Below, piece by piece: positions 5,841 through 48,643 of a stretch of 48,643 nucleotides of DNA. Each line of letters starts with the position of its first letter. The stretch's first letter is position 1. Made by a program: the position numbers and the translations under genes. Below the pieces are notes generated by a model. That model saw nothing but the letters and a program-made list of their open reading frames with translations. It was not told where the DNA came from and did not search any database. This DNA comes from a virus: positions 1-48,643 of the IMG/VR virus record IMGVR_UViG_3300026531_000004; one strand, written 5' to 3'.

Positions 5841-8800
5841 TGGCAATTACGATACAAGATCAAGTCATTGTAGATATGAGAGCTGATATCCGTAAATTGA
5901 AAAGAGATTTAGCGGAAGCAGAGGCGGCTACCAAAGCTGCCAATGCCGGTATGCGCGCACAATGGCGAGCAACAGCGGCATCGATAAGATTGACTACTTC
6001 TGAGTTAGTTCGTTTAGGTGTGACGATGTCTGTAACACTAGGAGCACCTGCACTGCACAACATTACCAAACAGGCAGATGAATGGAGTTTATTAGCGAGT
6101 AGAATTAAGTTAGTATCTGATTCTTATGACGAAGCGGCTAAGAAGAGAGAGGTATTATTTGACATAGCGCAGGAAACAAGAACCGATATAGTTAGCTTAA
6201 CTAACCTATATACTAGAATAGCCCGAAATACAAGACAGCTCAATATTGAAGATGAGAAGCGTTTAAAGTTAACGCGTTTAATTGCGAAAGCTCTTATTAT
6301 ATCAGGGGCAGAAACCAGATCAGCTGAAGCGGCATTGGTACAATTTACCCAAGGTTTAGCAGCTAATGCATTGAGAGGACAGGAGTTAAACTCTGTAATG
6401 GAGCAGACACCAAGAATCACACAAGCATTAGCTGATGGTATGGCAGCGGCTGTTAAGAAGAATAAAGAGCTGGCCGGCGTTGTGGCCAGTTCAATGGGTG
6501 TTACTATAGGTGAGTTAAGAAAATTAGCAGAAGAAGGAAAGATAACAACCAAAGTTGTCTTTGACGCTATATTAAGTCAAGAAAAGAAAATTAACGAAGA
6601 GTTTGGACAGATAGTAAAAACAGTAGGCCAGGCAGGTGTACAGTTAAGTAATGCATGGAAACGCTTTATAGGAAACCTAGATCAGTCGATAGGTATGACA
6701 CAATACCTAGTAAGACAAATAAATCTTTTGCGTGACTCATTAAGAGATGAAGATAAGGAATTAAAAGGCTACCAAAATCACTACATAGGTACGATAACAT
6801 CTATTATAGCGTACATAGATAAATCTATCGATGTGCTGTTGTATTTAGGCGTAATGTCTTACAGAGGTTATACAGTCGCGCTAGATTCTGCAGCTTTAAT
6901 AGGTAATGTGTACGCGAATAAGTTATTAACATGGGCTGAGAAATTATCGGCGTTTTTTAGGGAGATCAAACTTAAGGCCAAATTAACCGGTATGGAAATA
7001 GCAAACTCTCTCAGTTTTAAAATAGGTGATGTAGAAGTAATTGGACCAGCTTTCTCTGATAAAGATATTTTAGAAGTTAAAAAAGAAATAGCTAAAGCAG
7101 AAAACACAACTATTACGCGTGAAAGAGAAAGATTAGAATTAATATCGGAGCAGACAAATGCGCTGAGAGACCAATATAACGAATTAGCGTCAATGATAGA
7201 TAGACTGGAAAAGACGGCGGATATAACTGTTGATGACAGGATTAAAGCAATTCAAAAAGCTGCGGAGAAGTATCGAAAAGCTTTAGAGTTTGTACGGAAA
7301 GAAAGTGTGTACCAGCCGAGAGAACCAAAGAATGACCCAGAAAGCAACTTAAACAAAAAAATTGTGAATGGTTTATTAAGACGATATGATACAGAAAAGC
7401 TAGTTAACGACGCAATAGCAGATAGGATAAAATTAGCCGCAGAGCTCAAAGTGTACGAGGAGAAAATTAAAGAATACCCTAAAGTCGAGATTTTGGCCCA
7501 GGCCGATGTCGACGCTACTATGAAGCGTTTGGAGAACATACGCAAAGAAATAAAGCAAGTAAAAAGCATAAAACCTCAAAATTCCGCAACTGCAACCAGA
7601 TTATCGCAGTTGCAGACGGAAGAGCTTAGAATGCGTGTAAAGCTATATAAAATTGAAGAAAACGCACAGCGTAAACAAATTAAACTTCTTCAGCAAGCCG
7701 CCGATTATACAAAACAGATAAGTGACGCCCAAATAGAGCGACAACGAATATCTTTCGAAATAGAAAACATAGATTCAATAGACACATTTGAAGGTAAGAT
7801 ATTAAGTTTGGTAGATGAAGTTGAGCGCTTAAAAGTCGAGTTAAACAGTATTGAGTTTAAACGGTCGGCTTACGAAGCTATAGAAATCAAGAAAGCTGCT
7901 GATCTGGTTAAGTTAGAAGAGCTTAAAACCGACGAAGCTAGAAAACGGTTAGAGTTGGTTAAGAAACAACATGAGCTTGAAAAAACACTCAAACAACCTT
8001 TAGTAGATGCAGCAAAAACATGGGCTGAAGCGTTTTCTAGAACTGGAGAGTTTTCAGAAGCTATAAAAGCGGTGTTAGATAATTTTTTAGCCGATCTCCG
8101 TCAAGGTTCTTACGGTAATTCCGGCCAAGCTGTCGGTTGGTATTTTGCTATACTTCAAGGTCTTGGTGCATACTCGAGAAATCGTGCGGATGAGCGAGAA
8201 CAAAAACTAAAAGGTGAAGTTGAGTTTGATTCTAAAGATTTTCTGGATATGGCGCGTGCTTATGAAACAGCTACTTATCCGTTGTTAGGGGCTGTAAGGG
8301 AGACAAACAAACATTTACAGAATTTAGAGTCCATTTTTGCGTCAACAGCTAAAACAGTTTCGAATACACAACTTACAGACGAACAGGGAAGGGTTTGGCT
8401 TAGCTCATTAACCAGTGATGGTAGTGATAACTATAATTGGAGCGATACAAGCGGATTTTTAGGGTCCGACCATTCTAGCAGGACTTTGATAGATTCAGGT
8501 ATTTTATTAGAGACACAAAGACTGGGCGACCTCATAAACGCCAATACAACAGCTATAAAAGGTTATGTCACAGCTAGATTTGAATCATCTGGTTTTTGGG
8601 GCTGGTTATCCAGCTCATCGACAGGAAGGGAAACTTTTGAACTGCCTCAAGAAGTGCAAGAAGAATTTGCAGCTGCTTTCAATGAAGGTTTCCAAACTAT
8701 TCTAACAGCCGCTGTAGCATTAGGGTACGATGAAGACGACATTCGCCGCGAATTAGAAGACCAGCAAATATCTATAGATTTTACTAGTCTTTACGATTTA

Positions 8801-33400: not shown

Positions 33401-34027
33401 ATGAATAAGAACCCGTTGAATACTAAACCAGCAGGGAACCCCCTAACAAGCAAGCCAAGTACTGAAACTAAGCCGGCTGATGCAGGTAAAGTAGTAGAGA
33501 CAAAGCCAAGTACTGAAACTAAGCCGGCTGATGCAGGTAAAGTAGTAGAGACAAAGCCAAGTACTGAAACAACCACCAAACCGAAAAGAGACTATGTTGG
33601 TACACCAAACGAGGTGTTTTTAGAGATTTTACCTGATGAGAGAATTTCAAGACACAAAGCATTGAAGCTGGTTAGAGATTTAGGATTATCTTGTTCTCAA
33701 GCAAGAATGGCTGAGATCATCGAGCTTAAATACGGACCAGAACCAGAGAGAGAAAAGAAAAACAAAAACACATCGACTAGTAAAATCGAAAGAGAAAAAA
33801 AGAGAAAAGAGGCAGAGGAAAAAGCATTGGCTATCGTAAGAGCTAAGCGTGAAGCAGCTAAGAAAGGAGAACCCGTAGATGGTTACAAGGCGGAAGTATA
33901 TGTAGCTGCAGAAGATCCTGCAATCAAAACAAGTGATGACTCTAAACTTGATGAAAAGGCTAAAGATCCTAAGTCAGGTGATGACTCCAAACCTACTGAA
34001 AAAACAAAAGATTCTAAGTCAATATAA
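33401..34027 (+). CDS. Lys/Glu-rich protein with 17-residue repeats and HTH-like module
   Basis: The 208-residue protein starts with two exact 17-residue repeats plus a partial one (KPSTETKPADAGKVVET), a flexible Pro/Thr/Lys linker. Residues about 66-110 (EVFLEILPDERISRHKALKL, then VRDLGLSCSQARMAEIIELK) resemble the HTH-like module in the 29598 and 43861 genes. The C-terminal half is strongly basic and then acidic (DDSKLDEKAKDPKSGDDSKP). A DNA-associated or nucleoid-like role is possible. The DNA repeat is identical at all third positions, so it is recent. Confidence 0.6.
   Translation: MNKNPLNTKPAGNPLTSKPSTETKPADAGKVVETKPSTETKPADAGKVVETKPSTETTTKPKRDYVGTPNEVFLEILPDERISRHKALKLVRDLGLSCSQARMAEIIELKYGPEPEREKKNKNTSTSKIEREKKRKEAEEKALAIVRAKREAAKKGEPVDGYKAEVYVAAEDPAIKTSDDSKLDEKAKDPKSGDDSKPTEKTKDSKSI
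33452..33570 (+). repeat. 51-bp in-frame tandem repeat
   Basis: Two exact 51-base copies (33452-33502, 33503-33553) and a 17-base partial third copy. The period is a multiple of three, so copy number can change without breaking the frame. Confidence 0.9.
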
Positions 34028-34873: not shown

Positions 34874-35527
34874 ATGAATAACAAAAGTAACGATGTTAAC
34901 GGTAAACATTACGCTTCACTTGGCATATCTCCATTCGAGTATAGTTTCGCCAATAAACTAGATTGCTACCAGCACACAGCCATTAAATACATTACGAGAC
35001 ATGCCGATAAAGGAGGAATCGCCGACATCGACAAAGCCATAAAGACTTTGGAGCTATATAAAGAAGCGTTGGACAATACACAAACAACATGTGATGATAA
35101 ACCGGCGGAGATAGAAGCATTAAACAACTTAATTAATTCTGTTAAAGGTATTTATAAGAACAGAGGTATCGAGATCACTCATGTATTCTCTATAGGGCGC
35201 GGTGGTGCTTGGGCAGCGGCCCAAATAGCTTATGCGCTAGATGTACAGTGTGACATTGTAGATTCACTAGATCTTTTTGACGATGCCGGAGCGAGTTTAG
35301 GTGAAGGTTCTTTGTTTGTGGATGATATATGTGACACAGGCGAGACAATATATAAGGTTAAAAAAGAATACCCTGAAGTGCTTACAGCTGTTTTATTTAA
35401 CAGAGCTGACGATTATGTCAAAGTTAAAAAAGCAGCTAGACCGGATTATTTTGGTTCAATGATATGGCATAACGAATATGTTGAAATGCCTATATCACAA
35501 TACGCAGATGCAAACAACAACAAATAA
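34874..35527 (+). CDS. DUF3310-phosphoribosyltransferase fusion protein
   Basis: Residues about 7-68 match the DUF3310 pattern of phage proteins (HY near the start, then CYQHTAIKYITRHADKGG, then DIDKAIKTLELY). Residues about 85-205 form a type I phosphoribosyltransferase: FSIGRGGAWAAAQIAYAL and the PRPP-binding loop LFVDDICDTGETI (about 154-166), where DD and TGET contact ribose phosphate. The base substrate cannot be told; purine or 7-deazapurine salvage is a guess from the neighbouring deazaguanine genes. The start lies behind ATAAGGAAAAATC. Confidence 0.75.
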   Translation: MNNKSNDVNGKHYASLGISPFEYSFANKLDCYQHTAIKYITRHADKGGIADIDKAIKTLELYKEALDNTQTTCDDKPAEIEALNNLINSVKGIYKNRGIEITHVFSIGRGGAWAAAQIAYALDVQCDIVDSLDLFDDAGASLGEGSLFVDDICDTGETIYKVKKEYPEVLTAVLFNRADDYVKVKKAARPDYFGSMIWHNEYVEMPISQYADANNNK

Positions 35528-35542
35528 ACAAAAGGAGAGATG

Positions 35543-36097
35543 ATGTTAGTCAGAAAACAATTTAAATTCGAAGCAGCACACACATTAATATCTGCTTATT
35601 CAGAAAATTGTGTAAGTTCTATTCACGGCCATTCTTACTTGGTAGAAGTGATCCTAGAAGGAGAACCTACCTCCGCAGACGGCATGGTGGTAGATTTCAG
35701 TTATGTTAAAGCACTTATAGGAGCGTTTATAAATGCTTGGGATCACGCTATGGTCATAGCCGCAGCCGACCCGGTCAAAGAAGATTTACTTAAAATAATG
35801 AATAAATACAACATGAGATATATCGTCACGCCATTCAATCCAACAGCGGAAGAAATGTCTATATACTTCAGTGCTGTAATCGGAGATGTAATTACTAGGG
35901 CGAGCGCCGTACAATATAGTTTACATTCTGTCAGAGTGCACGAAACGACAACCGGCTGGGCCGAAACTGGTCCTGTAGCTTGGACTAAGGAAGATCTACT
36001 ATCTGTTCGATTTAACCATTTCGACCTTAACAGATTAATCGATGCCGCTTACACAGTGCCATCTTATACTATTACACAAAAACACGAGGTACAGTAA
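35543..36097 (+). CDS. queD: 6-carboxy-tetrahydropterin synthase QueD
   Basis: QueD turns dihydroneopterin triphosphate into 6-carboxytetrahydropterin, step two of preQ0 synthesis. Zinc ligands are His13 (FEAAH) and His28/His30 (HGH). Catalytic Cys23 is separated from HGH by four residues; E. coli QueD has three, so the spacing is unusual. FNPTAEEM and HETTTGWAE follow as in the family. At 184 residues it is longer than the usual 120, with an extra C-terminal part. ATG 35543 is better spaced from AAAGGAG than ATG 35540. It ends in TAATG with queE. Confidence 0.85.
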   Translation: MLVRKQFKFEAAHTLISAYSENCVSSIHGHSYLVEVILEGEPTSADGMVVDFSYVKALIGAFINAWDHAMVIAAADPVKEDLLKIMNKYNMRYIVTPFNPTAEEMSIYFSAVIGDVITRASAVQYSLHSVRVHETTTGWAETGPVAWTKEDLLSVRFNHFDLNRLIDAAYTVPSYTITQKHEVQ

Positions 36098-36726
36098 TGG
36101 AGACATTATATAGCATAGTGGAGATGTTTTATTCTGTTCAAGGCGAAGGCAAATTGGTGGGTACACCTATGTTCTTTGTTAGGTTGTTTGGTTGTGACTT
36201 ATCTTGCGATTTCTGCGACGAGCCTAAACATAAAGATAGTAAACTGATTAAGCGCCTAACAGCAGATGATATAATAAATGAGGCCAAATTAACTAATACT
36301 GAATGGGTGTGCGTTACTGGTGGTGAGCCATCACTACGCCCTATTAACCACTTAATTGGTAAGCTGCAAGACGCAGGACTTAAAGTAGCTGTGGAGAGCA
36401 ACGGATTTAGACCTGGTAATATAGAACGAGCAGATTTCTTAACATTATCACCTAAACACCCTACAAGGTTAACCAAGATCGGTGAGCGTAAATGGGATGA
36501 GGTTAAACTGCTTATATCTGATGAGGGCCTACATTTCCAGCTCAACGACAACGACCAAGCCACATTAGATGCTTTGTTTGAGATATCTGAAAGCGTATAT
36601 GTACAACCGATTAACGATGCTGATTCGTTGAATATAGATAATGCATTAGTGGCAGTGTCATTCGTTGAATCACATCCTGAGACAAGACTAAGTCTGCAGA
36701 TACACAAAATGATAGGAGTAGCTTAA
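36097..36726 (+). CDS. queE: 7-carboxy-7-deazaguanine synthase QueE (radical SAM)
   Basis: QueE rearranges 6-carboxytetrahydropterin to 7-carboxy-7-deazaguanine. The iron-sulfur motif is C33-x3-C37-x2-C40 (GCDLSCDFCD), VQGEG near the N-terminus and VTGGEPSL (about 72-79) are family hallmarks, and LSPKHP lies further on. The length of 209 residues is normal. It is coupled to queD upstream and to a small basic gene downstream by TAATG overlaps. A 189-residue antisense frame here is a shadow. Confidence 0.92.
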   Translation: METLYSIVEMFYSVQGEGKLVGTPMFFVRLFGCDLSCDFCDEPKHKDSKLIKRLTADDIINEAKLTNTEWVCVTGGEPSLRPINHLIGKLQDAGLKVAVESNGFRPGNIERADFLTLSPKHPTRLTKIGERKWDEVKLLISDEGLHFQLNDNDQATLDALFEISESVYVQPINDADSLNIDNALVAVSFVESHPETRLSLQIHKMIGVA

Positions 36727-36923
36727 TGTTCTGGTCTTTATCAATGTTTGGTTTGGATAATGGTATGACTGAGACATATCTAAAGAGAGTTACTAAGCAA
36801 GGTAAAGGTCGTAACCGTTTATCGTATAAACATTCGACACAGGTGAAGGGTGCACGCCACTCTTCCTTGCGTAGTCGTGGTAATCGATTAAAAACTAAAC
36901 TGAAAAAGAAAAACAAGAGATAA
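36726..36923 (+). CDS. Small very basic protein of unknown function
   Basis: The 65-residue protein is strongly basic in its last 45 residues (RSRGNRLKTKLKKKNKR), suggesting nucleic-acid binding. It starts at a TAATG overlap with queE, so it is translated with the modification enzymes. No family was recognised. It could bind DNA to help the transglycosylase, but nothing in the sequence proves that. Confidence 0.55.
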   Translation: MFWSLSMFGLDNGMTETYLKRVTKQGKGRNRLSYKHSTQVKGARHSSLRSRGNRLKTKLKKKNKR

Positions 36924-36960
36924 TTTATATTCAGAGATTAGCTTGCTTTTATAGTGTAGA

Positions 36961-36982
36961 TTCAGTTAAATTACGATATAAT
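36961..36982 (+). promoter_or_regulatory. Promoter inside the modification island (TTCAG-N11-TATAAT)
   Basis: TTCAG (36961-36965), 11 bases, TATAAT (36977-36982), then ATAGAATAAA. It is preceded by GTGTAGA, also found before the leftward promoter at 44318. It would drive the 37008 gene, dpdA and queC. Confidence 0.7.
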
Positions 36983-37007
36983 ATAGAATAAATAAAAAGG
37001 ACACTAT

Positions 37008-37196
37008 ATGAGAAGAAATGTTATAGTAGTGAGAAGCAGTGGCGTCATCGATTCAACGATCAGCCTGCTTTTCGCTTTAGTATTCTGGTCCGTGTTGTTT
37101 GTTGTTATGGCATCTAAACTTCACGACGCTAAACTTGCTATCGCCGCTGACACAAACACATCTAACGGCTCAACACACATTACATCAAAGGAATAA
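37008..37196 (+). CDS. Small single-pass membrane protein
   Basis: The 62-residue protein has one hydrophobic segment (ISLLFALVFWSVLFVVMA, about 18-35) after a basic N-terminus, and a polar Thr/Ser-rich C-terminus. It is the first gene behind the promoter at 36961 and lies 3 bases before the transglycosylase gene. The function is unknown. ATG 37008 is behind AAAAAGGACACTAT. Confidence 0.65.
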   Translation: MRRNVIVVRSSGVIDSTISLLFALVFWSVLFVVMASKLHDAKLAIAADTNTSNGSTHITSKE

Positions 37197-37199
37197 ATC

Positions 37200-38006
37200 A
37201 TGGAACCTATTAAATTAGCTCACATTGCACCGATTGAGCATATACTCAAAGCTGACAAACAAAGCGATATAGTTATGTGCCTGTATCACATGCTTGACAA
37301 TCCTAAGTATAAGGGATTAATGATGCTTGAAACTAAATATAAGATACTGGATAACAGTTATTATGAAAAGCATAAAGACGATGCGTTTATGGAACAGTTT
37401 AATAATACTTGCACATTTATACAATCGTTAATCGACGCCGCTTTAGAGATTAAAGCTAACTGTGTTGTGTTGCCCGATGGTATAATAACACCTGAATCAA
37501 TTGATATAGTACAGCAACATGACTTAGATGTAATGGTTGTACCTACAAACAAAGAACAGCTTAAAGAAGCTATAGTCAGTAAAGCCGACCTGATTGGCTT
37601 ATCTTTTATACACGCAGCTAATATAATTTCGTTGAATGTAGCTTTCAGAGAGAATATCCGCCCGTTGTTACTGAAGACGATTAAGTTAGCCGCTGCAGAA
37701 TTAACAGGATTAACCGGCTTGTGTGTCGATGATGTTTTGCGTAAGCGAATACACCTGCTGGGCTTGTGGTCGTATGACGAACTAATTAAGTGTGTACCAT
37801 ATACAGATATAGTTAACAGTTGCGACACCAGCACAGCTGTTTGGCTAGGCTTAAACGGTAAAGACGCCACAAAGATGAAAAATAAATTCTATAAAAAAGT
37901 TGATTTCACTTGCAATAAAGAATGGAATCTGTTATGTTCTTGGAACATGGGTTGTATGCGAGGCGTCACCAAAGCCGGCGCTTACCTTGTAAAGGATATG
38001 TCATGA
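37200..38006 (+). CDS. dpdA: Putative DNA 7-deazaguanine transglycosylase, phage DpdA family
   Basis: Phage DpdA proteins are TGT-like enzymes that swap guanine in DNA for a 7-deazaguanine base. In this 268-residue protein, KILDNSYYE (about 49-57) and EIKANCVVLPDGIITPESID (about 83-102) match the DN and P-D signatures of phage members, and SCDTSTAVWLG (about 210-220) matches the late DTS segment. The candidate catalytic acids are Asp51 and the Asp of LPDG. Neighbouring folE, queC, queD and queE support the assignment. The closing CSWNMGC pair of cysteines is unexplained. It ends in an ATGA overlap. Confidence 0.75.
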   Translation: MEPIKLAHIAPIEHILKADKQSDIVMCLYHMLDNPKYKGLMMLETKYKILDNSYYEKHKDDAFMEQFNNTCTFIQSLIDAALEIKANCVVLPDGIITPESIDIVQQHDLDVMVVPTNKEQLKEAIVSKADLIGLSFIHAANIISLNVAFRENIRPLLLKTIKLAAAELTGLTGLCVDDVLRKRIHLLGLWSYDELIKCVPYTDIVNSCDTSTAVWLGLNGKDATKMKNKFYKKVDFTCNKEWNLLCSWNMGCMRGVTKAGAYLVKDMS

Positions 38007-38182
38007 TTGCTTATGCTACAGTCGTATTAGTGGTAGTGGCTGGTGTATGGGCTATGGTATCTAAAGAGGGACCAGATGGTTCTGTTACTTATGACGACAC
38101 CTCAGAGGACCACCCTCAAGAAGGACAAGAGTATCTAGTTTGCCCTAAATGCGGTTCAGAGTATTGCGGTGGTTGCGATTAA
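38003..38182 (+). CDS. Small membrane protein with zinc-ribbon end
   Basis: The 59-residue protein has an N-terminal transmembrane segment (ATVVLVVVAGVWAMV, about 5-19), an acidic linker, and CPKCGSEYCGGC (about 47-58), a C-x2-C-x4-C-x2-C metal site. The start is ATG 38003 in an ATGA overlap with dpdA; an upstream in-frame start would lie inside dpdA. The function is unknown. Being locked between dpdA and queC, it may be part of the modification unit. Confidence 0.65.
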   Translation: MIAYATVVLVVVAGVWAMVSKEGPDGSVTYDDTSEDHPQEGQEYLVCPKCGSEYCGGCD

Positions 38183-38191
38183 CAAACTTTT

Positions 38192-38230
38192 TATGTACCT
38201 ACCCGCTTAAAGGCTAGGTGCATAGATGGG
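38192..38230 (+). promoter_or_regulatory. Hairpin with possible pseudoknot in the queC leader
   Basis: TATGTACCTA (38192-38201) pairs with TAGGTGCATA (38215-38224) over 10 positions with one G-T pair. CCC at the start of the loop (38202-38204) could pair with GGG (38228-38230), forming an H-type pseudoknot some 10 bases before the queC ribosome site. It does not match known preQ1 classes by eye; ligand control is speculation. Confidence 0.4.
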
Positions 38231-38263
38231 TTGTTATGCCCTAATCTAACTCAGGAGAGTAAA

Positions 38264-39007
38264 ATGAATAAAAATACATTAATGGTTATTAGCGGTGGCA
38301 TGGACAGTGTTGTATGCCTACATGCTCATAAAGATATTATAGGAGCCGCGGTGTCTTTCAATTATGGCAGTAACCACAACAATATAGAGATGCAATATGC
38401 GCGCTATCACTGTAAATTACTTAATATTCCGCATACAGTAATAGATTTAAGTACAGCAATGACGGAATTTAAATCTGCGCTATTAAGCGGAGCTGAAGCT
38501 ATACCGGAAGGACACTATGAAGATGAAAATATGAGACAGACAGTGGTACCTTTTAGAAATGGTATTATGTTATCTATGGCTGTCGGCCTGGCGGAGAGCA
38601 AAGACTTAGAGCAAGTTATGTTGGCCTCGCATGCCGGCGACCATGCTGTATATCCAGATTGTAGAGAAGACTTCAATGAAGCTTTTAGAAATGCGGCAAG
38701 ACTAGGTACCCACAACCACATCGATGTTGTCATGCCTTTTAGCTCGATCACTAAGAGAGACATCGCCACTATCGGAGCTGACTTAAATATTGATTGGTCA
38801 ACCACTTGGAGCTGTTATAAAGGCTCAACTGAGAATGTACTGGATGAAGAGGATGAGTTGCTACCTCTAGTGGATAGACCTCACCATTGTGGTAGATGCA
38901 GTACATGTGTTGAGCGTATTTGGGCTTTGAAAGATGTAATTGATGATACTATCTATGATGATGGTGACTTCGCCATCAACCTGTTAGAAGAGAGAGGAGA
39001 GTGGTAA
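38264..39007 (+). CDS. queC: preQ0 synthase QueC
   Basis: QueC converts 7-carboxy-7-deazaguanine to preQ0 using ATP and ammonia. The PP-loop SGGMDS is at residues 10-15, and the C-terminal zinc site is CYKGSTE followed by HCGRCSTC. At 247 residues it is standard QueC; the glutamine amidotransferase domain of the phage 9g Gat-QueC type is absent, so archaeosine-type product is not expected. ATG 38264 is behind CAGGAGAGTAAA; starts at 38231 lack a site. It overlaps the MazG-like gene by TAATG. Confidence 0.92.
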   Translation: MNKNTLMVISGGMDSVVCLHAHKDIIGAAVSFNYGSNHNNIEMQYARYHCKLLNIPHTVIDLSTAMTEFKSALLSGAEAIPEGHYEDENMRQTVVPFRNGIMLSMAVGLAESKDLEQVMLASHAGDHAVYPDCREDFNEAFRNAARLGTHNHIDVVMPFSSITKRDIATIGADLNIDWSTTWSCYKGSTENVLDEEDELLPLVDRPHHCGRCSTCVERIWALKDVIDDTIYDDGDFAINLLEERGEW

Positions 39008-39294
39008 TGAGCGCAAATATAGGATTGGAAGCTCAAGAAGACTATGCAATCAGAACTTTGGCTACAGCTATGAAGTTCAAATTCACCGTACATAGATATA
39101 AAGGTGGATGGAAACATAAAAGCAACAAAGTTTTAGTTAAAGAAATGTATCGTGAAGTGGCAGAGCTTGAACAGGCCATCAGCAAAGACGAATTAAATCG
39201 TGAAGCGGTTATAGCTGAATGCGCTGATATAGCTAACTATTGTGCTATGTTAATAGATAATTTACAAGCTGGAGGATCAAAACATGCCAAATAA
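39007..39294 (+). CDS. MazG-like NTP pyrophosphohydrolase
   Basis: The 95-residue protein shows the all-alpha NTP-PPase pattern EMYREVAELEQAI (E-x3-E) followed by ECADIANY (E-x2-D), the four acidic metal ligands of MazG-type enzymes. It would trim a nucleotide pool, perhaps the dGTP or GTP-derived pool next to deazaguanine synthesis. It starts at TAATG on the queC stop and overlaps folE by 11 bases, placing it firmly in the island. Confidence 0.7.
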   Translation: MSANIGLEAQEDYAIRTLATAMKFKFTVHRYKGGWKHKSNKVLVKEMYREVAELEQAISKDELNREAVIAECADIANYCAMLIDNLQAGGSKHAK

Positions 39295-39958
39295 CCACAA
39301 AATAGACAACATAATCGCTGCATGTTCTTCTTCTAATTTCGATGGCCCTCTACTAGGCGCAGACACAATCACAGATGCTGACATTACCGACACAAGCATC
39401 TTAGTGACTGAGCAGCAAGCTATGGACGCTGTTAAGACACTTATGCAGTTTATAGGCGCTGATATGACTGACCCTAACTGCGTGGATACGCCTAAGAGGG
39501 TCATGAAGGCTTGGAGAGACTATTGGGGCGCTGGTTACAAGCAGCAGTCAAGCGATTTCTTGACTGTTTTTCCTAATGAGGGTTACGACCAAATGGTTGT
39601 TGTGGAGAATATCCCGGTGAACAGCACATGCTCTCATCATTTGGCCCCTATACATGGCACTGCTACAGTTGCGATTATACCGCGTCATGAACTCATTGGC
39701 CTCAGTAAATATGCTAGAATTGTCGATATGTTTGCGCGCAGACTTCAACTGCAAGAACGCTTAACACAGCAAATCGCAGATGAATTAGAGGATTTATTAT
39801 CTCCGGTTGGAGTCGCTGTCTGCATCAGAGCTGAGCACATGTGCATGAGCACTCGCGGAGTTAAAATTCACAATGCTGTTACGACCACAACCGCCTTAAC
39901 TGGGGCGTTTAAAAATAACCCTGAGACAAGAGCAGAGTTCATGGCTCTTATCAAATAA
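39284..39958 (+). CDS. folE: GTP cyclohydrolase I
   Basis: FolE opens the guanine ring of GTP to make dihydroneopterin triphosphate, the first step toward preQ0. Zinc ligands are Cys116 and His119 (TCSHHLAPIHG) and Cys187 (RAEHMCMSTRGV); QERLTQQIADEL is the conserved helix. The 224 residues include a longer, poorly conserved N-terminus. ATG 39284 lies behind GGAGGATCAAAAC. It closes the modification island. Confidence 0.93.
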   Translation: MPNNHKIDNIIAACSSSNFDGPLLGADTITDADITDTSILVTEQQAMDAVKTLMQFIGADMTDPNCVDTPKRVMKAWRDYWGAGYKQQSSDFLTVFPNEGYDQMVVVENIPVNSTCSHHLAPIHGTATVAIIPRHELIGLSKYARIVDMFARRLQLQERLTQQIADELEDLLSPVGVAVCIRAEHMCMSTRGVKIHNAVTTTTALTGAFKNNPETRAEFMALIK

Positions 39959-41839: not shown

Positions 41840-41967
41840 AATGGTATGTCCCATAAAATAACGCTTTATGAAGGGGTGAAACCGAGTAAATGTTTTATTT
41901 TTACTATTTATACTTTTTTCACCCCATTTAAACGGTGAGAAGCCTCTTTGAAAATGATGGTGGCGAT

Positions 41968-42005
41968 AAAGGGAGGGCAATGTCGCCTTTCCCTTTTTAT
42001 TTTAT
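41968..42005 (+). terminator. Rho-independent terminator
   Basis: AAAGGGAGGG pairs with CCTTTCCCTTT around a short loop (two G-T pairs), followed by TTTTATTTTATTTTT. It lies 195 bases after the nuclease stop and would end the whole rightward early transcript. GGCGA/TCGCC offers an alternative stem. Confidence 0.75.
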
Positions 42006-42050
42006 TTTTGGCCTAGAGCTGTTTAGTAAAGGTCTGGGGCCAGTTAACAA

Positions 42051-42145
42051 ACATTGTCAGGTTGGTCAGACATTGTCAGGTTGGTCAGACATTGTCAGGT
42101 TGATCAGACATTGTCAGGTTGGTCAGACATTGTCAGGTTGATCAG
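42051..42145. repeat. Five tandem 19-bp iterons
   Basis: Consensus ACATTGTCAGGTTGRTCAG, starts at 42051, 42070, 42089, 42108 and 42127; copies differ only at the R. Directly repeated units of about 19-22 bp are typical binding sites of replication initiators. Confidence 0.9.
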
Positions 42146-42551
42146 ATCAGGTATAGATCGCAGCACAGGGCCAGGCCTGTAAAACCAGGGCAACCTGTTT
42201 TGTTATTAAATAAGAAACATAAGCCAAGCTAGTAAAACATTCCGAGCGGCTTCCCATGGGCGACCCAACCCGAAAAAACAATTTTAGCCGGCTCGATCAG
42301 CCAAAACACTAAAGCACAACATTGCAAAGCAGGCCACCAGTACAATCAGGCCAATCAGGCGACATCGCCCAGGCGCAAACAAACATTAACCACATAACTA
42401 CTAAAACATCCATTTCAGGGAGGCTGATCAAGGGGTCTAATTTTGTACAAACACGGCACCCATCCGCGATTAATATAAATGTGCCACACAGAGCGACATT
42501 AGCCACCAGGTACTTTAAAAGGGGGGGGTTACGCGGAATGAAATTCTATAT

Positions 42552-48102: not shown

Positions 48103-48643
48103 ATGACATATGACGATATACCACTACACAGGGACTATATAGCGTTTCAGTCTCGGTGGTTACAGCTTAAACACTGTTTAGAGGGTGAAGAGGCTGTGAA
48201 GGCTGAGAGGGAGACATACCTACCGTATCCTGTTAGGGTGGATGATGAAGACAAAACAAGCAAAGAGTATCAGGCGATGTACGAGCTCTTTTTACAAGGC
48301 GCACATTTCGTCGAGTTTACCGCCGAGGCTGTAGAAGATTTGGTTTCATCGGCGTTTAGACGCCCATTGGAGATTAAGAAAGACGCTGAAGTAATTACCG
48401 AGATTGAGGAGCTTGACTATATAGATTTCTCTGATGTGGGTAAAGAGGTTGTAAGTAATGTTGGCGCGTATGGGCGGGTGTTTCTGCTTGTTGATTATCC
48501 TTCGGTGGAGACAGTACCAAACATGATAGAGGATAAAGATAACAAAGCATATATCACGCTCTATACACCATTAGATGTGCTTAACTGGAGAGAGACTAAG
48601 CGTTCAGGCAAGGTCGAGCTTGTTAGAGTTGTACTGCGCGAGA
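48103..48643 (+). CDS. Portal protein, N-terminal part (runs off the window, continues at base 1)
   Basis: The frame opens at ATG 48103 (MTYDDIPLHRDYIAFQSRWL) and stays open to the window end; bases 48500-48643 repeat 1-144, so the gene continues at base 1. The segment FVEFTAEAVEDLVSSAFRRP and the later NVGAYGRVFLLVDYP resemble the N-terminal clip and stem part of siphovirus portals. At the repeat, codon 4 is GAG here (Glu) and GCG at the start (Ala); the other mismatch is silent. Confidence 0.85.
   Translation, partial: MTYDDIPLHRDYIAFQSRWLQLKHCLEGEEAVKAERETYLPYPVRVDDEDKTSKEYQAMYELFLQGAHFVEFTAEAVEDLVSSAFRRPLEIKKDAEVITEIEELDYIDFSDVGKEVVSNVGAYGRVFLLVDYPSVETVPNMIEDKDNKAYITLYTPLDVLNWRETKRSGKVELVRVVLRE
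48500..48643. repeat. Terminal direct repeat with 1-144 (assembly overlap of a circular map)
   Basis: The last 144 bases equal the first 144 except at 48509 (A; C at 10) and 48633 (A; G at 134). The gene crossing the join stays in frame, so the sequence is a circular or circularly permuted genome of about 48.5 kb. Two mismatches hint at strain variation. Confidence 0.9.

Follow-up and report, generated by a model that had tools for sequence, protein, structure and literature searches.

The virus record IMGVR_UViG_3300026531_000004 in IMG/VR (48,643 bases; hereafter the window, meaning the whole stretch of DNA analysed) carries at positions 34874–39958 a 7-deazaguanine island of a known kind, with a transglycosylase from an unusual family and a conserved, apparently undescribed phosphoribosyltransferase (PRTase) partner. 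The island is predicted to make 7-cyano-7-deazaguanine (preQ0), which a transglycosylase of a third family would insert into phage DNA, while the PRTase would recycle the displaced guanine with a DUF3310 domain as partner; taken whole, this reading is rather probable, with appreciable room for error. The gene set exceeds chance by far. By gene content the virus is a siphophage (portal, major head protein, tape measure protein, ribonucleotide reductase, DNA ligase and terminase). Bases 1–144 and 48500–48643 differ at only two positions, and joining these overlapping ends yields a continuous portal gene, so the record, although classed as linear, looks like a complete genome of ~48.5 kb, and the absence of genes from it therefore carries weight. 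An initial annotation of this DNA had named the open reading frames (ORFs) of the island, all of which are present; those that carry the argument are as follows.

34874..35527, + strand: DUF3310 (residues ~5–68) fused to a 6-oxopurine (xanthine/guanine type) PRTase (residues ~82–217); PF00156, E 4e-7; DUF3310, E 0.015 in Pfam and 4e-19 with our own profile, which includes the window sequence
35540..36097, + strand: QueD, 6-carboxytetrahydropterin synthase; PF01242 (PTPS) 2e-24, TIGR03367 3e-20; Cys...HGH motif present
36097..36726, + strand: QueE, 7-carboxy-7-deazaguanine synthase; phrog_2076 (QueE-like) 2e-30, TIGR04508 5e-27, radical SAM 4e-11; CxxxCxxC present
37200..38006, + strand: TIM-barrel protein, predicted third-family DpdA-like DNA guanine transglycosylase; invariant D51, D93, H185 and D209
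38267..39007, + strand: QueC, 7-cyano-7-deazaguanine synthase, with no glutamine-amidotransferase (Gat) domain; PF06508 2e-52, TIGR00364 above cut-off
39284..39958, + strand: FolE, GTP cyclohydrolase I; PF01227 6e-63, TIGR00063 above cut-off

The transglycosylase and its relatives

As a lone query, the 37200–38006 protein has no match in Pfam, PHROGs or IMG/VR viral contigs, and among annotated phages it matches only two hypothetical proteins (E 7e-7 and 1e-5). Its sole NCBIfam match, to dUTP diphosphatase, lies far under the cut-off (E 0.001) and is an unlikely identity. The family, 80 loci in IMG/VR, emerged only with a profile of five sequences (the window protein, the two hypothetical proteins and another two relatives); the same profile has no match in a sequence search of the PDB. 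The AlphaFold 2 (AF2) model, made from a 51-sequence alignment, is a (beta/alpha)8 barrel with a mean confidence (pLDDT) of 87.7 and a predicted template-modelling score (pTM) of 0.87. After VIA-align re-ranking, nearly all of the top 50 rows are tRNA-guanine transglycosylase (TGT), the best with a Z score of 16.3 across 229 residues. The initial annotation had proposed a dpdA-like transglycosylase here and named a predicted structure unlike the TGT fold as a refutation; the model is TGT-like, and the DpdA catalytic motifs accompany the fold.

Profile-profile comparison (hhalign) of this family with DpdA1, the 9g/CAjan type, gives a probability of 91% and a P value of 1e-6, against at most 1.6% for five unrelated controls, and the alignment pairs D51, D93, H185 and D209 with residues of the DpdA1 motifs DSGAF, LD, HxFG and DSSS. 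Residues D51, N52, S53, E56, D93, H185, G188 and D209 are kept in 85/85 family sequences. The DpdA1 profile (A4) itself misses the window enzyme, so that only the profile-profile comparison connects the two, and the DpdA2 profile (A3) misses it as well, the window reading LDNSYYE rather than DSGGLQ. Because both profiles miss it, the enzyme is assigned to a third family, whose motifs are LDN, PD, HxLG and D(T/S). The resemblance to 9g and CAjan that had been suggested for the island does not extend to the transglycosylase, and profile search rules out the enzymes of nt-1 and CAjan as close relatives. Exchange of guanine for a 7-deazaguanine is the probable activity, with DNA as the presumed substrate.

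Third-family proteins occur in Cellulophaga phage phiST, near folE, queE and queD (69 bits to the A2 profile), in Bacillus phage BSP7, inside a full que island, and in Chryseobacterium phage MA9V-3. The protein gp056 of Campylobacter phage CP220 is the lone CP220 match to the A5 profile (E 4e-27) and keeps all motifs. In CP220 DNA, 100% of dG is replaced by 2'-deoxy-7-amido-7-deazaguanosine (dADG) (PMC8306585); in the classification of Hutinet et al. such Campylobacter phages belong to the group without DpdA (PMC6884629). The CP220 and window transglycosylases are homologous, with all catalytic motifs in both, whereas their sequence similarity is remote, the CP220 genes are scattered and its base is dADG at complete replacement. 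Cui et al. in 2023 reportedly named such an enzyme DpdA3, to which CP220 gp056 and the third family probably correspond. Third-family enzymes are annotated as hypothetical in Vibrio phage D479, Aeromonas phage Ahp1, Vibrio phage Bakedbeans, phiST, MA9V-3, BSP7 and CP220 (loci L001, L002, L004, L183, L184, L185 and L190).

preQ0 synthesis and the predicted base

The four preQ0 genes recognised at the outset, FolE, QueD, QueE and QueC, are firm by Pfam, PHROGs and NCBIfam, and their motifs are kept, so the predicted product of the pathway is preQ0. The likeliest start codon of QueC, in correction of the upstream TTG, is the ATG at 38267, which an AGGAG closely precedes. FolE is a known fold relative of QueF, and QueF and FolE models cross-match; an early QueF-profile count was discarded for this reason. 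A query with QueF from sister phages matches FolE alone in the window genome (E 0.025). The earlier observation that the island has no recognisable finishing enzyme agrees with these results: QueF, a Gat domain on QueC, Gat-QueC and other known finishing enzymes are not found in this complete-looking genome. The genome thus has FolE, QueD, QueE, QueC and a DpdA-like enzyme without an amidotransferase or QueF, the gene set of Group-2 preQ0 phages, and CAjan and Rosebush, which have the same enzyme set, carry dPreQ0, the deoxynucleoside of preQ0 (PMC6884629). Compared with CAjan (Hutinet et al. 2019), the window shares the four synthesis genes and a transglycosylase without an amidotransferase, but its transglycosylase is of another family and the CAjan island has no annotated PRTase or DUF3310. 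The best prediction for the final base, as first proposed, is dPreQ0.

From polymerase to helicase, the genes of two sister phages, L010 and L012, run in the same order as in the window. Their islands contain a stand-alone PRTase, QueF (PF14489, 1e-20; positions 6195–6620 in L010 and 5728–6150 in L012), QueD, QueE, the transglycosylase, QueC and FolE, with a MazG enzyme in between in L010. Because they have QueF, preQ1 is the product expected of these phages, and the finishing step would therefore vary among relatives; the window phage is predicted to stop at preQ0 unless an unrecognised enzyme acts. Such an enzyme could instead yield dADG or another derivative, an ending that is otherwise compatible with the proposed mechanism and that the dADG of CP220, made in a phage with a third-family transglycosylase, and the variable end product of the group would both allow. 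We consider it unlikely, though not to be neglected, given the lack of any known finishing enzyme in this genome and the dPreQ0 of CAjan and Rosebush.

Although FolE, QueD and QueE are frequent neighbours of the transglycosylase, QueC lies close to it in just 6/80 (L008–L087) and 4/80 (L191–L270) loci; the pathway of these phages may end at an earlier intermediate, or QueC may be encoded elsewhere. Upstream of the island, separated from it by a few genes, L010 (4731–5045) and L012 (3773–4171) carry a dATP/dGTP diphosphohydrolase N-terminal domain (PF18909) that is not seen in the window.

PRTase, DUF3310 and the fate of guanine

The AF2 model of the PRTase part of 34874–35527 has pLDDT mostly ~90, and its best Foldseek matches are hypoxanthine-guanine-xanthine and xanthine-guanine PRTases (HGXPRT/XGPRT, E 6e-7); the viral PRTase family has its nearest solved structures among purine PRTases, E. 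coli XGPRT (E 7e-20) being one of them. The motif that binds phosphoribosyl pyrophosphate (PRPP), VDDxxDTG, and the RGG loop are both present in the window copy (RGG and LFVDDICDTGETI). It shares these motifs and the fold with E. coli XGPRT (Gpt), but is viral, lies in a que operon and is fused to DUF3310.

Of the 80 third-family loci 34 have a PRTase gene, as do 37 of the 80 DpdA2 loci; all but one of these genes are beside que genes, and they usually overlap their neighbours or sit within tens of bases of them. Specificity for the third family is rejected, since the PRTase is equally common with DpdA2; many relatives of the Vibrio phage nt-1 type have a PRTase embedded among que genes, although DpdA2 is longer than the window enzyme and carries the DSGGLQ motif. 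A DpdA1-type island (L351) has a PRTase between queD and queE. In a reciprocal test with PRTase seeds drawn from que loci, 59/80 PRTase loci have FolE, QueD, QueC or DpdA within 5 kb (73/80 counting QueE), compared with 1/80 random loci (2/80 counting QueE). The control is a random 16-mer sample of about equal total length, which replaced DNA polymerase loci, of which only two were obtained. The link to a que gene persists in 46 of the 53 PRTase loci that remain after clustering at 60% identity.

The DUF3310 profile matches 54/80 third-family loci, against 2/80 DpdA2 and 2/80 random loci, and 15/20 against 1/15 after collapse at 60% identity. Its gene closely follows that of the third-family transglycosylase, without exception in the same orientation and in most cases with an overlap at the end of the transglycosylase gene; in Rhizobium phage RHph_I1_18 the domain and the transglycosylase form one protein. 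The window fusion joins two conserved neighbours of the third-family transglycosylase, DUF3310 and the PRTase, and the initial proposal that this gene belongs to the system is supported by the linkage of both parts. T7 gp1.7, a nucleotide kinase, also carries DUF3310 (E 4.5e-23) and has nothing else in common with the island, being without a transglycosylase or PRTase. We read DUF3310 as a partner domain of third-family transglycosylases, which perhaps couples exchange and recycling.

TGT-type enzymes expel guanine on inserting the new base. In the proposed sequence of events, FolE, QueD, QueE and QueC would convert guanosine triphosphate (GTP) to preQ0, and the 37200–38006 enzyme would put preQ0 in place of guanine in phage DNA, giving dPreQ0 that would protect against host restriction. 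Each exchange would free one guanine base, which the xanthine/guanine-type PRTase would convert to GMP, and rephosphorylation to GTP would feed FolE again. The analysis establishes the identities of the genes, the fold, the catalytic motifs and the conserved linkage; DNA as substrate, dPreQ0 as final base, guanine as PRTase substrate and the role of DUF3310 are inferred from these. The duplex of the window genome has 19,056 guanines, and in CAjan about a third of guanines are replaced (PMC6884629); at that proportion thousands of guanines would be freed per genome, and with one GTP spent per preQ0, recycling would pay. We place the recycling step by the PRTase just below an even chance. The wider hypothesis, that viral 7-deazaguanine islands hold a dedicated guanine-recycling branch which closes a loop from GTP through preQ0, DNA and guanine back to GTP, and that DUF3310 is a third-family partner fused here to the recycling enzyme, is offered tentatively, with doubt somewhat outweighing confidence.

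The PRTase could also be an ordinary purine salvage enzyme that lies near que genes merely as an early metabolic gene, in a phage whose DNA is modified as proposed. The ribonucleotide reductase and MazG-like genes of the phage do point to a general interest in nucleotide supply, and about half of the loci examined yielded no PRTase, which also counts against the recycling proposal. Its position inside the que operon, usually overlapping neighbours and across different transglycosylase families, and the fact that among 80 random viral loci the single PRTase sits in the single que island make plain salvage an unlikely explanation. It is highly improbable that the PRTase turns preQ0 or another 7-deazaguanine into a nucleotide for the polymerase, with the transglycosylase secondary. 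A base-to-nucleotide enzyme is indeed embedded in a modified-base pathway, and the MazG-like enzyme and, in the sisters, the PF18909 domain could remove competing dGTP, but the same islands contain a transglycosylase, XGPRT relatives act on 6-oxopurines and deletion of dpdA in CAjan abolishes modification (PMC6884629). Least credible of all is that the genes raise host tRNA queuosine through a tRNA-type transglycosylase, because the 37200 protein, although it has the TGT fold, is only 268 residues long, where bacterial TGT is far longer (~370 residues in the chains from Z. mobilis), matches DpdA motifs and has a relative in CP220, whose DNA is proven to be modified.

Several further observations weigh against preQ0 insertion by the third-family enzyme coupled to guanine recycling. 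The phage is uncultured, and its modification is predicted from its genes. PdxJ, another TIM barrel, scores Z 15.6 with 197 residues, less than one Z unit behind TGT, so the fold by itself is no proof of activity. In the family tree no branch is longer than that of the window enzyme, whose position the tree does not settle. The window PRTase ends in NEYVEMPI, without the WIxxPW(D/E) purine-pocket segment that phiST and most PRTase relatives keep as C-terminal WIxFPWE and that reads YIxFSWE in L010 and L012; lacking it, the enzyme may differ in base specificity, and guanine is its presumed substrate. The choice of seeds biases the reciprocal test, so true linkage across all viral PRTases is expected to be lower, and DUF3310 is not found in L010 and L012 within the stretch covered.

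Neighbouring genes and significance

The remaining genes of the island are a MazG-like gene and three small ORFs.

36726..36923, + strand: very basic 65-residue protein (19 K+R, 2 D+E); ORF overlaps the QueE stop; no Pfam, PHROG or phage match
37008..37199, + strand: 62-residue single-span membrane protein; Kyte-Doolittle 19-residue maximum 2.48; only phrog_9213, E 0.015, not a convincing relative
38003..38182, + strand: 59-residue membrane protein with a CPKCGSEYCGGC zinc-ribbon-like tail; Kyte-Doolittle 19-residue maximum 2.39
39001..39294, + strand: putative small MazG-like nucleoside triphosphate pyrophosphohydrolase; tblastn to annotated MazG-like proteins, E 1e-4 and 1e-3

Overlapping start and stop codons, on which the tight coupling of the island had been argued, are present at QueE/36726 (TAATG), 37200/38003 (ATGA), QueC/39001 and 39001/39284. 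The proteins at 36726, 37008 and 38003 are plausibly coding, with starts coupled to neighbours or preceded by good ribosome-binding sites. A search of 50,697 phage records finds no relatives of those at 36726 and 38003, and all three have none among the related loci compared. Start/stop coupling alone does not establish membership in the system, and for these three proteins the membership first suggested is unsupported. The MazG-like assignment is probable: the protein matches annotated MazG-like proteins and contains EVAELE...AECADIAN, to be set beside the ExxE...ExxD pattern, and Pfam MazG is not matched. The gene is shared only sporadically among these islands, MazG occurring also in those of L010 and phiST. 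Upstream of the island, at 33401–34027, near-identical ~54-bp tandem units encode KPSTETKPADAGKVVET at the start of a lysine-rich protein. Short tandem repeats at 41935–42182, reading QVGQTLSGWSDIVRLIRH, lie downstream of helicase and nuclease genes, and around them the GC skew switches sign and several ORFs are on the minus strand.

Phage 7-deazaguanine modification has so far been described in terms of two components, preQ0 supply and base exchange. What becomes of the guanine given up at each modified position, 19,056 bases in this genome under full replacement, is a question that the literature searched does not take up. No paper was found on the PRTase in these islands, a negative of little weight because most subscription literature lay outside the search. 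A transglycosylase family that includes one phage with complete guanine replacement extends to many genomes in which it is labelled hypothetical, and DUF3310, found also in T7 gp1.7, gains a functional context. The conserved PRTase in operons with different transglycosylase families makes the fate of guanine directly testable.

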